Source: a virus
Direction: 5' to 3' (one strand)
IMG/VR virus record: IMGVR_UViG_3300043331_002190
Span: 1 to 20,810 of that record
Length of the DNA stretch: 20,810 nucleotides
Below are positions 2,070 through 20,810 of the stretch, in pieces. The notes beneath the pieces were generated by a model, which saw only the letters and a list, made by a program, of their open reading frames with translations, did no database searches and was not told where the DNA came from. The translations under genes and the position numbers were made by a program. How positions within the stretch are numbered: position 1 is the first letter of the stretch; each line of letters opens with the position of its first letter.

Positions 2070-2073
2070 CAAA

Positions 2074-2086
2074 ACCCCCTTTGGGG
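2074..2086 (-). promoter_or_regulatory. Ribosome binding site inside a small hairpin
   Basis: On the minus strand CCCC-AAA-GGGG (plus 2076-2086) can fold into a 4-bp hairpin whose 3' arm is the GGGG(G) Shine-Dalgarno run of the gene starting at 2069. Pairing would hide the ribosome site, and the larger adjacent stem (2088-2107) could compete with it. The pairing is seen in sequence; any regulatory effect is inferred. Confidence 0.45.
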
Positions 2087-2460
2087 ACTCCGGCGTTTAG
2101 GCCGGAGGGGAAAAAGGGTTGCCGCCAACGAGCGGCAATTCCCGGTGCGGCAACGCCGCATAAACGATTCGCATAGGTCACAAAATACTGGATATACTTT
2201 CTTCAGGTATGACTTAATCTGCATTGCGACTCGCTCGTAAGGCTGTCTAAGCCTCTACCGTAGGGCATACGGGAAGTAAAGCCTGCCGAGATCATGTGAG
2301 ACCTGCGGGGATTTGCGGGTTGCTTTCGCCAGCGTAAAAGTCCCCAAGAGGGGACTGGTGTAGCGAAAACCAAGCGCACTTCCCCGTGGGCAGGATCGAT
2401 GAAACAGGAACGGGGATTCGTCCCCGGAATCTCCGTCGTTTACGGCGGAGAGCATGTCAA
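2075..2460 (-). ncRNA. Hairpin-rich non-coding element, candidate OMEGA/HEARO-like RNA or IS200/IS605-type remnant
   Basis: This is the only gene-free stretch above 300 bases (2070-2470). Read on the minus strand it starts with TTGACATGCTC and a stem around a TAAA loop (2428-2451). Perfect small hairpins follow: GGGGA-CGAA-TCCCC (2412-2425), a 7-bp stem at 2339-2356, a 6-bp stem at 2146-2160, a 7-bp stem at 2119-2138, and CTCCGGC-CTAAAC-GCCGGAG at 2088-2107. TTTCGC/GCGAAA (2323-2368) can close a larger stem. The start motif resembles the terminal hairpins of IS200/IS605 elements and the RNAs that precede iscB genes. The 3' end, a hairpin then a G-run directly before an ATG, is arranged as in iscB loci, but here a virion gene follows. 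No transposase or nuclease ORF is inside. The 70-residue ORF at 2255-2467 is probably not translated: it lacks known motifs and runs through the hairpins. The structure is seen directly; the family name is inference. Confidence 0.5.
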
Positions 2461-2464
2461 GGCG

Positions 2465-2472
2465 CACCTCCT
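2465..2472 (-). promoter_or_regulatory. Orphaned Shine-Dalgarno sequence
   Basis: The stop TAG of the 836-residue gene is embedded in TAGGAGGTG on the minus strand, an ideal ribosome site with no start codon of a gene at the right distance. Other junctions in this operon have the same stop-plus-SD design directly before the next start (for example before the coat gene). It therefore looks like the original ribosome site of the gene now starting at 2069, separated from it by the inserted element. Confidence 0.55.
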
Positions 2473-4981
2473 AAGCGTTTAAGCCGCGCAGATACGCGGT
2501 GGCATTATTGGTAAGCCCGCCAAGGGCGGTCTGGAAGCCCTGCGCCTGGCCGAGCGGTCCCAGGGCCTGGGCCGTCCCGAGCTGGCCATAGAGGTTGCCC
2601 ATCTGCCCGGCATAGCCCGCCCCGAGTTGCCCCAACTGGCTCCCGGCGAGTTGCCCTAAGCCGGCGACGGAGGCGAACTGATTCCACTGCCTGGTCAACT
2701 CCGCAATCTGCTGGGCATACGCCTGCTGCTGGCGCTGATAGTCCTGCTCATTCTGATAGACATCGCGCCCGTAGCCGATCTGCGACTGCTGGAGGAGGCG
2801 GTTGTACAGCGCCGTGTCGTAGGCCTCGCGCTCGCGTTGGGTCTGTTGCTGGCCCTGGAAGCCCGCCTGCCAGCCAAATTGCTGCTGCTGGGCGCGCGCC
2901 TGGGCCTCTTGGAGGGCCTGCTGCCAGTTCTGCGCCCCGGCCACCTGCGCCAGTTGTTCACGCAGCCGCGTCTCGTCCATGGCCTGACCAAAGCCGAGCT
3001 GACTCGCCGTCTGCGCCCAGCCCTCGCGCATCTGCGCTTGTTGCGCCGCGCGCTGCCAGGCGTTGGCATATTCCTGGGAGGCGAGATCCTGGCCTTGCTC
3101 CTGGAGCGCCGCCAGGGTCGGGCCACTGAGCAGGCTGCCGCGGGCCGCCGCCGAGCCTTCCAGGGCGTTCCTGGCCCGGTCGAGGCGGAACTGCACGCCC
3201 GGATCATTGGCCAAAAGCTCCTTCCCGCTCAAGGTGGGCAGCGCGCCCGGCGTATAGCGGTACTGCGCCGCCCCGGGCACCTGGCCCGGCCGGTAGGCAT
3301 AGGGTGCGGCACTCGGGACGTCTGTCGGCGTATAGCCCGCATAGGTGGAGGGCTGCCACCCCGGGGTGGTGCCAGGCAGCGCGTAGTTCGCGCCGGAGAC
3401 GGCCGGCGTGGCGCCCGGTTGCTGCGGACCGTTCCACGCCATGCGGCCGGTCATGTGGCCGAGGGCCTCCCGCCCGGCTTGCAGCCAGGGCGCCTGATTG
3501 GCCTGGGTCTGCAACCACTGCGCCGTCTGGAGGTCGAGCCCGCGCTGGAGGGCGGCCGCCTGCGCGGCAGAGGCATTCCCGGCCGCGTTGGCACCGAGCA
3601 GGCCGCTGCCGAGCGAGCCCAGGGCACTGACGCCGGCGCCGAGCAGGCCCGGTTTGCGCCCGAGGGCCCCGAGCGCGCCACTCGCCAGTCCCCCGAGGGA
3701 GCCCAGCCACGAGCCGCCGCCACTGCCACCCCAATCCGTGAGCTCCTGGCCATACCAGCTGCCCGGCCCGCCGGCCGTGAAACTGCCCCAGTCGAGCCCG
3801 GATCCCGCATCCGACAGGAGCATGCCCTGCCCCCCGCCGCTCCAGTTAAGCCAGTCCTGATCGCCAAAGTCATCCCATGCCATAGGTCCTCCTGTGGCGC
3901 CGGCCTGCACGCCCTGCGCCGCCCCGAGTAGTCCCGCCACGCCACTGCCCAGACTGCCGAGCTGGGAGCCTAACCCGAGATAGCGCCCGGCCTGCTGTAA
4001 AGGCTCCACGCCACTCGCCCGGCCCAGGGCGCCCGTGATGCGTCCGGCACTGCCGGCCAGCCGCGCCACATCGCCGACGTTCTGTATGCCGCCGCTGAAC
4101 ACGTTGCCCAGGCCCGCGAGGCCACCCGCCAGGCCGCCGACCACGCCGAGCCCGAGACCAAGCTTGCTCAACCACGGTTGCCCGGTCACGGCGCCGAGCA
4201 GGCCCGCCCCGGTGCCGCCGTAGGAGCCGATCGCCCCAATGGTGCCGAGGGTGGACGTCGGGATCCCCAGGAGAGACGGCGCCGCCGCCCCAGCCGCCGC
4301 GCCACCCGCCCCCGCGACAGGGGCAAAGGCGCCAAAGGCCCCGGCACCGCCCACCGCACCGCCCAGAGCGCCGAGCGCCAACATGAACTCGTTTGAAATG
4401 GGCGAAAAGGCGTCGCTGGCCTGGGGCACGCTCGCCACGTAATTCTGGTGCCGCATCTGCGCCAGGAACGTGTCAAAGAGTTGCCGCTCCTGCCCGGTCG
4501 CCTGGCCGCTGCGGATGCGCTCATCGAGCTGGAGCATAATCGCGCCGGCATCTGGACTGGACGGTGTGAGATACTGGCTCCAGTCGCCCCCTTCCCCGGG
4601 ATAGCCGGCCTGGAGCTGCGTCCAGTCCCGGTGGGGAATGGCCATCGCCTGCTGGCGCATCTGCTCGTACTGCTCGCGCTCGTAGTCCTTGAGCGTGCCA
4701 GCACGCTGCGCCTCGCCCATCTCCATGAGCGAGGGGATATAATTGACCGCGTAGGACGACAGCCCTGGCAACCACTCCTGCGTATGCGCGCCCGGACGCC
4801 ACTGGAAGCGTGCCTCACCAAATTGTGCGGGCAGCGTGTACTCTGGCAGCCGCTCGACGCCCTTGTCGCCCCAGGTGATCTTTTCGCCATTGGGCAAGGT
4901 CAGCTCGCCGTATTCTGGGATGGATGCCCCTTCCTCCTGATCGTCGACCAGCCCGCGCCCGGGCACCCAAAACAGGGCCAT
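2471..4981 (-). CDS. Large Gly/Ala-rich ejection-type virion protein
   Basis: 836 residues. The N-terminal 170 are mixed and acidic (LPNGEKITWGDKGVERLPEY, then a helical region). Residues of about 195-500 are extremely Gly/Ala/Leu-rich with several weakly hydrophobic segments, as in podovirus internal proteins that insert into or cross the cell envelope. A Pro/Tyr-rich linker follows. The C-terminal 230 residues are Gln-rich helix with RGSLLSGPTLAALQEQGQDL followed by ASQEYANAWQRAAQQAQ, a pattern recurring in phage DNA-transfer/injection proteins. ATG 4979-4981 is preceded by GGAGGGAGG and lies one base after the previous stop. It is followed by another ejection-type gene, as in P22-like and T7-like ejection clusters. 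The family assignment rests on composition and the C-terminal motif, so the exact orthologue (P22 gp7, gp20 or gp16 type) is not decided. Confidence 0.75.
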   Translation of the reverse strand: MALFWVPGRGLVDDQEEGASIPEYGELTLPNGEKITWGDKGVERLPEYTLPAQFGEARFQWRPGAHTQEWLPGLSSYAVNYIPSLMEMGEAQRAGTLKDYEREQYEQMRQQAMAIPHRDWTQLQAGYPGEGGDWSQYLTPSSPDAGAIMLQLDERIRSGQATGQERQLFDTFLAQMRHQNYVASVPQASDAFSPISNEFMLALGALGGAVGGAGAFGAFAPVAGAGGAAAGAAAPSLLGIPTSTLGTIGAIGSYGGTGAGLLGAVTGQPWLSKLGLGLGVVGGLAGGLAGLGNVFSGGIQNVGDVARLAGSAGRITGALGRASGVEPLQQAGRYLGLGSQLGSLGSGVAGLLGAAQGVQAGATGGPMAWDDFGDQDWLNWSGGGQGMLLSDAGSGLDWGSFTAGGPGSWYGQELTDWGGSGGGSWLGSLGGLASGALGALGRKPGLLGAGVSALGSLGSGLLGANAAGNASAAQAAALQRGLDLQTAQWLQTQANQAPWLQAGREALGHMTGRMAWNGPQQPGATPAVSGANYALPGTTPGWQPSTYAGYTPTDVPSAAPYAYRPGQVPGAAQYRYTPGALPTLSGKELLANDPGVQFRLDRARNALEGSAAARGSLLSGPTLAALQEQGQDLASQEYANAWQRAAQQAQMREGWAQTASQLGFGQAMDETRLREQLAQVAGAQNWQQALQEAQARAQQQQFGWQAGFQGQQQTQREREAYDTALYNRLLQQSQIGYGRDVYQNEQDYQRQQQAYAQQIAELTRQWNQFASVAGLGQLAGSQLGQLGAGYAGQMGNLYGQLGTAQALGPLGQAQGFQTALGGLTNNATAYLRGLNA

Positions 4982-8968: not shown

Positions 8969-9808
8969 ATGGCAACCTTTTTATGCCGCAAGTGTCAAAA
9001 GATTCTTCCAGTCTCACACTTTTACCCCTCACGCCTGACGACAGAACGCGGCAATAACTGGTGTAAAGCATGTCTGGGCTATACCAGGCCTATCCTTTCA
9101 GTCAAGCAACGCTGCTATTGGGTTGCTTCACCTGAAGGACTTCTCGAAGCACGCTACTGCCATGCATGCGTGCGTGTCTTACCAGTGAGCGAGTTTCAAC
9201 CAAGGCCAGGAAGACCACGGGGATATCACTCACGTTGTCGTATATGTTCTACAAAGATGCGAACAAAACATCGCCTTGACCATCATGAGCACAATCTTGA
9301 GTACTATCGTGCGTACTATGCTCTTCACAAGGAAGAACAAGCACAAAAACGCCAAGCAAATCCTGCGGTGCGTGCTAAACGCTACCAGAATTTCCGGCGA
9401 TGGGCGCTCGCAAATCCTGACAAACATGCTGAGCAACACAGTCGGCGCCGGGCACGCAATCGTGGTGCCAACATTCGTGATTTGACTGCACAGCAATGGC
9501 AAACCATCAAAAGCCTGTATGACAATCGCTGTGTCTACTGCGGACGTGGCCCCAAACGATTGACCCGTGACCATATCATTGCCCTTGCTAATGGTGGAGA
9601 TCATACCGCAGCCAATATCGTCCCAGCATGTGGATCCTGTAATGCGCGAAAACGATTAGGACCACCACATTGCCCTATGCTCTATCTCCTCTACATTCCA
9701 GCACTATGGCATACAGATATTCTTGTTCGATGGTTTACTACATGGCTCTATAGTTCTATAAATATTACTACATTGGCGACCATATACGCGCGAGACACTC
9801 TCCCATGA
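8969..9808 (+). CDS. HNH homing-type endonuclease with N-terminal zinc knuckles
   Basis: 279 residues. Two N-terminal Cys knuckles (C6/C9...C32/C35 and C64/C67...C90/C93), each followed by an LPVSxF phrase, belong to the 'CxxC..k.l.eF...Ck.C' type common in phage HNH proteins. A basic helical linker follows. The HNH nuclease spans about 185-230: C188-x2-C191, the catalytic DH at 201-202 in LTRDHIIALANGGDH, N216, and C221-x2-C224 with N225. The protein should nick or cut DNA, probably as a selfish gene. ATG 8969 has AGGAGG upstream. The gene is much more AT-rich than its neighbours, which signals recent transfer. It runs against the late operon, and its last 41 bases overlap the 3' end of the coat gene. 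The C-terminal 45 residues are hydrophobic and unlike a known domain, perhaps because the reading frame ran on into older sequence. Confidence 0.9.
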   Translation: MATFLCRKCQKILPVSHFYPSRLTTERGNNWCKACLGYTRPILSVKQRCYWVASPEGLLEARYCHACVRVLPVSEFQPRPGRPRGYHSRCRICSTKMRTKHRLDHHEHNLEYYRAYYALHKEEQAQKRQANPAVRAKRYQNFRRWALANPDKHAEQHSRRRARNRGANIRDLTAQQWQTIKSLYDNRCVYCGRGPKRLTRDHIIALANGGDHTAANIVPACGSCNARKRLGPPHCPMLYLLYIPALWHTDILVRWFTTWLYSSINITTLATIYARDTLP

Positions 9809-20714: not shown

Positions 20715-20810
20715 TTGACGTCCTCCCCGGCATAAATGCCGAGGATTCCTGAGACCAGGGTACAACGTCCTGTACCGGGAGAGATGCTGTCTCCCTTATT
20801 TGCTGACGGG
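20715..20810 (+). ncRNA. Start of a second hairpin-rich element (partial at window edge)
   Basis: TTGACGTCCTCCCCGG starts a 35-base block that matches the left element's start at 26 positions. It folds around the same TAAA loop. Two further perfect hairpins follow: GGTAC/GTACC (20759-20776) and GGGAGA/TCTCCC (20777-20795). The element continues beyond the edge. It lies about 80 bases after the last plus-strand gene. As for the left copy, an IS200/IS605 end or an OMEGA/HEARO-type RNA is the best explanation; if so, a nuclease gene may follow outside the window. Confidence 0.5.

Follow-up and report, generated by a model that had tools for sequence, protein, structure and literature searches.

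Why does a Shine-Dalgarno (SD) sequence in a phage late operon lie ~395 nt from the next start codon, and what occupies the space between them? The window analysed here, which at 20,810 bases spans its IMG/VR virus record completely, represents the late region of a P22-like podophage, as judged from matches to the P22 portal, P22 coat and head-closure. On its minus strand, gene calls and phrog matches place a DNA-ejection-like late gene (2471-4981; phrog_598) upstream of a late gene of unknown function (480-2069; phrog_35431), and the ~395 bases that separate the two are without a conserved protein. The ejection gene had originally been taken for the downstream one, but the phrog_598 match lies in the upstream gene. 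Elsewhere in the window, an HNH endonuclease gene (8969-9808, plus strand) is situated between late genes in antisense orientation.

Two ribosome sites for one start codon

The upstream gene terminates in ...AACGCTTAGGAGGTG, and its stop codon TAG overlaps the native SD TAGGAGGTG (2473-2465, minus strand). The ATG of the following gene is located at 2069-2067 (minus strand), ~395 nt past this SD, and is directly preceded by a second ribosome site (2067-2082 including the ATG), in which AAAGGGGG (2082-2075) and the spacer TTTTG (2074-2070) give a spacing of 5 nt. Both the ~395-nt separation and the new site five bases before the ATG had been pointed out in the original prediction, and both are exact. 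The predicted SD:anti-SD pairing amounted to -11.6 kcal/mol for AAAGGGGGU at the new site and to -13.5 kcal/mol for the orphaned UAGGAGGUG with the flanks joined. Whichever strand was folded, the interval proved more structured than expected by chance (z -4.2 and -4.4; 0/100 shuffles as stable).

The interval as an insertion

At the same junction in three related phages (L002, L004 and L005), the SD and the ATG were found to lie only a few nucleotides apart, the sequence being TTAGGAGGTCCAGGCATG in L002 and TTAGGAGCAGGCCATG in L004 and L005; comparison of related phages, which had been proposed as a check, therefore did reveal the empty site. When the flanks of the window itself are joined at a TCAA repeat, TAGGAGGTGCGCCTTG-ATG results, which is a normal start. 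Since the upstream proteins of these relatives are only 54-55% identical to that of the window, some room is left for loss instead of gain. In L003 (60% identical), the gap at this junction is ~900 nt long and contains an HNH-like ORF in antisense orientation. This ORF is similar to the HNH gene of the window (E 1.7e-7) and is not called HNH by Pfam. A homologue of the window HNH gene is located at 796-329 (minus strand) in L003.

A full-length copy (copy A) resides at a different gene in the related phage contig G002, exhibiting 78% identity to the window over 294 nt and 82% over 45 nt of the left end (LE). The same contig also holds an LE half (copy B) and a right end (RE) at the contig start (C); signs of decay and truncation are evident in copy B as well as in the RE pieces. 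Although ORFs are present on both strands of the interval, a coding gene in the gap was rejected, because one-base indels between the two copies disrupt the frames and argue against a conserved protein. With empty alleles and a second copy in hand, the proposal of a mobile structured element between SD and start codon holds.

Anatomy and identity of the element

The whole element, delimited by the empty sites and by a full-length copy in L017, comprises 388 nt (2073-2460) and reads on the plus strand, antisense to the phage late genes, and not on the minus strand to which it had previously been assigned. TCAA both precedes (2069-2072) and closes it (2457-2460), so that the exact borders can shift within the repeat. 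Subterminal palindromes are present at both ends. The LE (2073-2107, plus strand) consists of the outer CCCCTTTGGGG (2076-2086) and the palindrome CTCCGGC-GTTTAG-GCCGGAG (2088-2107), a hairpin that recurs in other copies with changed arms. A second LE hairpin, TTGCCGC..GCGGCAA (2119-2138), persists in copies A and B with a different stem; on the gene strand it is followed by CCCTTTTTCC and is thus terminator-like, and the T run is also found in copy A. Further inside lies a 29-nt motif, GCATAGGTCACAAAATACTGGATATACTT (2171-2199, plus strand), which is the best-conserved stretch among the copies in six phage contigs, and its position hints at a former tnpB promoter region. The interval yielded no promoter-like site.

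The right half begins with VGHTGSKACRDHVRPAG (2260-2310, plus strand), an in-frame fossil tnpB 3' end comparable to ..ACGADVRRAG in L016 and ..ACGDGVRPPRT in L007. The RE (2426-2460, plus strand) is composed of GGAAT, the palindrome CTCCGTCGTTTACGGCGGAG (2430-2451), AGCATG and TCAA, and matched by blastn the REs of plasmid elements whose annotated tnpB, on the same strand, extends to the match or stops shortly upstream of it. The window record gave no match to a Y1_Tnp or TnpB domain, and the element is without a transposase gene. The related contigs, like the window, yielded neither tnpA nor tnpB; as all of these are fragments, the absence of partners is not proof. Rfam searches gave no intron family (group I intron or IStron) in the element at E<=1. 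The insert was thus securely identified as a non-autonomous IS200/IS605-type element (PATE/MITE). Very probably, it is an internally deleted tnpB-carrying IS that was inserted at TCAA between the native SD and the ATG.

A TnpB guide RNA scaffold without tnpB

After the start of the fossil tnpB end comes a TnpB reRNA (omega-RNA) scaffold, GCCTGC..GTGAGACC..GATGAAACAGGAA..GGAATCTCC..GCATGTCAA (2276-2460, plus strand). A covariance model, R1, for which the window and copy A were the sole input, gave full-length matches at the tnpB 3' ends of L016 (62 bits, E 5e-18), L007 (59 bits, E 4e-17), L018 (53 bits), L014 (49 bits) and L008 (46 bits), and it detected homologous RNA at tnpB 3' ends on the same strand also in L010, L006 and L009. 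R1 further matched TnpB-free RNAs in L013 and L015, two phage contigs that a pattern scan had brought up, and no TnpB domain was found anywhere in these two records. R1 did not match L030, L031, L033 and L034, which are TnpB loci from other clades, and is therefore subgroup-specific. In a 14-sequence alignment, which was fitted to R1 and thus leans towards the structure of the model in its favor, 94% of the cells pair, as compared with 41-49% after a shift of the partners by 1-3 columns. Both sides change in 26 of the 49 pairs, exceeding all 500 shuffles. Between the window and copy A, moreover, the reRNA half is much better kept than the LE half and shows compensatory changes. One reRNA stem is ~60 nt longer here than in the TnpB-linked homologues found in the analysis.

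Rfam HgcC (RF00062) aligned at full length to the reRNA/RE part on the same strand (2337-2471) with 24.5 bits, below the gathering cutoff of 50 (E 0.0012 for the interval and 0.05 for the whole window). In 41 kb from L007, L013, L015 and L017, Rfam at E<=0.5 gave three HgcC matches and nothing else; each coincides with an R1 match, and they mark the homologous places in L007, L015 and L017.

Since only the last tnpB codons are left in the window, and tnpB is not present there in cis, the RNA is an reRNA homologue without its gene. The scaffold is complete and covarying, and its RNA may still be used by a TnpB acting in trans. By position only, under the rule described for ISDra2 (PMC8612924), the would-be guide is GGCGCACCTCCTAAGCGTTT (2461-2480, plus strand), the RE flank that covers the native SD and the stop codon.

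Related elements in other phage contigs

The 29-nt LE motif, with at most five changes from the query, was found at nine places in six phage contigs, and none of 200 shuffled windows gave a match. Through this motif, the element is linked to further TnpA/TnpB-free elements in four other phage contigs. Neither TnpA nor TnpB was detected in these six contigs, which are all fragments. The RNA bodies differ among the elements sharing the motif; the window and copy A share the present reRNA. At L035:3020-3420, L035:4480-4870 and L038:11790-12200, the same LE motif accompanies a different, strongly structured and TnpA/TnpB-free body, AATACGAC..GCGTAAAAGTTGAACCGACG..GAGAGAAAC, which ends in GTTCAA in two of the three cases and for which no Rfam match was found. 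A third body type, with an ACTCC..GGGAG hairpin, shares the motif at L017:8163-7800 (minus strand), L036:1656-2010 and L037:2521-2200 (minus strand), and a short motif, GCGTAAAA, recurs in most body types.

Several further pieces were noted. At L013:13726-13820 (plus strand), a tnpB-free, reRNA-like element of 95 nt immediately precedes the start of a terminase-like gene, in antisense orientation to it, and L017:11846-11867 (plus strand) is a palindrome outside the recognised copies, GTCACTCCGTCGTTTACGGCGGAGTGAC, whose core is identical to the RE hairpin of the element. An RE remnant at G008:C1:11755-11827 (plus strand; the same stretch as L039:456-528) lies a short way ahead of an ORF start and in antisense to it, on the phage contig that also holds L036. 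At 20715-20810 (minus strand), the window itself contains a second, different IS605-type right end, GGAATCCTCGG..CCGGGGAGGACGTCAA (R1 E 2e-5), which is cut by the contig end, and contig G002 likewise begins inside an RE, since assemblies break at repeats. When the viral and genome collections were scanned by exact pattern for the RE, the LE and a gapped form of the reRNA, no match was obtained; a looser pattern scan found six viral contigs, and a short-motif BLAST for an autonomous parent among plasmids and phages returned chance-level matches only.

Origin of the ribosome site

The SD that now precedes the ATG lies in element DNA, and it is thus the element that supplies the ribosome site in the window, as had been proposed. 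This SD belongs to the outer part of the LE and is directed away from the element, and it would not otherwise serve a nuclease ORF as the original prediction supposed. The statement is restricted to the window, because the native leader of L002, GGCTATCTGCTATGGCT, resembles the region before the ATG at copy A, where the SD may be native; a first reading in which the LE border of copy A adjoins the ATG as in the window was dropped on the same grounds.

The hairpin CCCCAAAGGGG overlapping the new SD, together with the terminator-like hairpin on the gene strand, would fit a 5' regulator domesticated by the phage for switching translation of the downstream gene. With the element present, the core of the new SD is indeed predicted to be mostly paired (GGGGG unpaired 0-0.3); the native SD with the flanks joined, however, is predicted to be equally paired (AGGTG unpaired 0-0.02), and the empty-site relatives manage without the element. 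Translation controlled by an SD-hiding fold is thus not supported, and we regard such a regulator as very unlikely.

Proposed history and competing explanations

The original prediction had proposed an iscB/HEARO-type omega-RNA element, to which structured DNA without an ORF and with a ribosome site at one end would correspond. The proposed search with Rfam HEARO (RF02033) gave no match at the gathering threshold, nor at E<=1 with laxer filters, and the RNA is situated at the RE, with tnpB upstream on the same strand in the linked homologues. The absence of a HEARO match and the R1 matches at tnpB 3' ends refute this identity, which retains hardly any probability.

For the preferred reading, a deleted IS200/IS605-type element, the following history is very probable. 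Internal deletion of a tnpB-carrying IS gave rise to a derivative that retained both ends, the final tnpB codons and the entire reRNA scaffold. This derivative then entered the late operon downstream of the native SD and ahead of the ATG, at a TCAA on the plus strand (TTGA on the gene strand). TnpA from the host or a co-resident element presumably moved it in trans by peel-and-paste, and it may owe its survival here to a ribosome site in the outer LE that was usable, be it by chance or through selection. More tentatively, the reRNA might be transcribed in a cell with a matching TnpB and direct cleavage of empty sites in element-free phages, which would help the element to persist or home.

Within this explanation, two sub-cases can be considered. 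The element may be an inert fossil that moved in once, is tolerated by the phage and carries an reRNA unused today, for which we see a little less than an even chance; the lack of detected tnpB in related contigs, the lack of a promoter-like site and the decayed copy B and RE pieces are consistent with it, whereas the far better preservation of the reRNA half between the full copies, with compensatory changes, is not readily accommodated. Alternatively, the TnpB of a host or co-infecting element could load the reRNA and cut empty sites. The covarying scaffold, copies at several loci, the matching reRNAs of TnpB-linked elements that other phages and plasmids carry, and the HNH-like gene occupying the same gap in a related phage all point in this direction, but no partner TnpB was found; moreover, the known empty sites of the relatives would not be targets, because they are without TCAA and match the guide poorly near the RE. 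A working trans-acting guide is hence possible though rather unlikely, and so, to a similar degree, is the spread that it would afford in the manner of homing endonucleases. We consider it improbable that the dispersed protein-free elements, each taking its guide from its own insertion site, are trans-acting guides for the TnpB of a host or another element, by which element-bearing phages cut and convert, or exclude, rivals without them.

Relation to known systems

Transposase-free IS605-type elements are already known from cellular genomes (PMC3119063, PMC7290912). Like the palindrome-associated transposable elements (PATEs) of Haloquadratum, which were reported in 2011, ahead of the discovery of TnpB guide RNAs, the present element has no transposase gene, IS605-type subterminal palindromes, no target duplication and outer ends that vary in sequence; those PATEs reside in a cellular archaeal genome, whereas this element is in a phage (PMC3119063). 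The PATE-like element of Halanaerobium hydrogeniformans, which keeps the last 58 nt of tnpB, displays the same deletion layout of LE hairpin, tnpB end and whole RE; it is, however, a single copy on a bacterial chromosome, its report predates TnpB guide RNAs, and the present element is located in phage late operons, several contigs containing relatives of it (PMC7290912). As in the reRNA of ISDra2, the RNA comprises the tnpB 3' end and the RE, with a guide, here predicted, from the RE flank; unlike ISDra2, no tnpB adjoins it, the RE ends in GTCAA, and the left flank CATCAA replaces the TTGAT motif (PMC8612924, PMC10097598). The accessible part of the open-licence literature gave no account of phage-borne reRNA elements that are free of TnpB.

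The locus shows how insertion at a TTGA/ATG site parts an SD from its start codon and yet keeps a ribosome site. The usual view of a TnpB reRNA is that of a component of tnpB in cis. Here, the reRNA scaffold, complete and covarying, is carried in phage late operons without TnpB, and several phage contigs contain related elements with a common LE motif and partly different RNA bodies. These findings raise the testable question of whether a TnpB guide RNA may spread alone by borrowing a nuclease.
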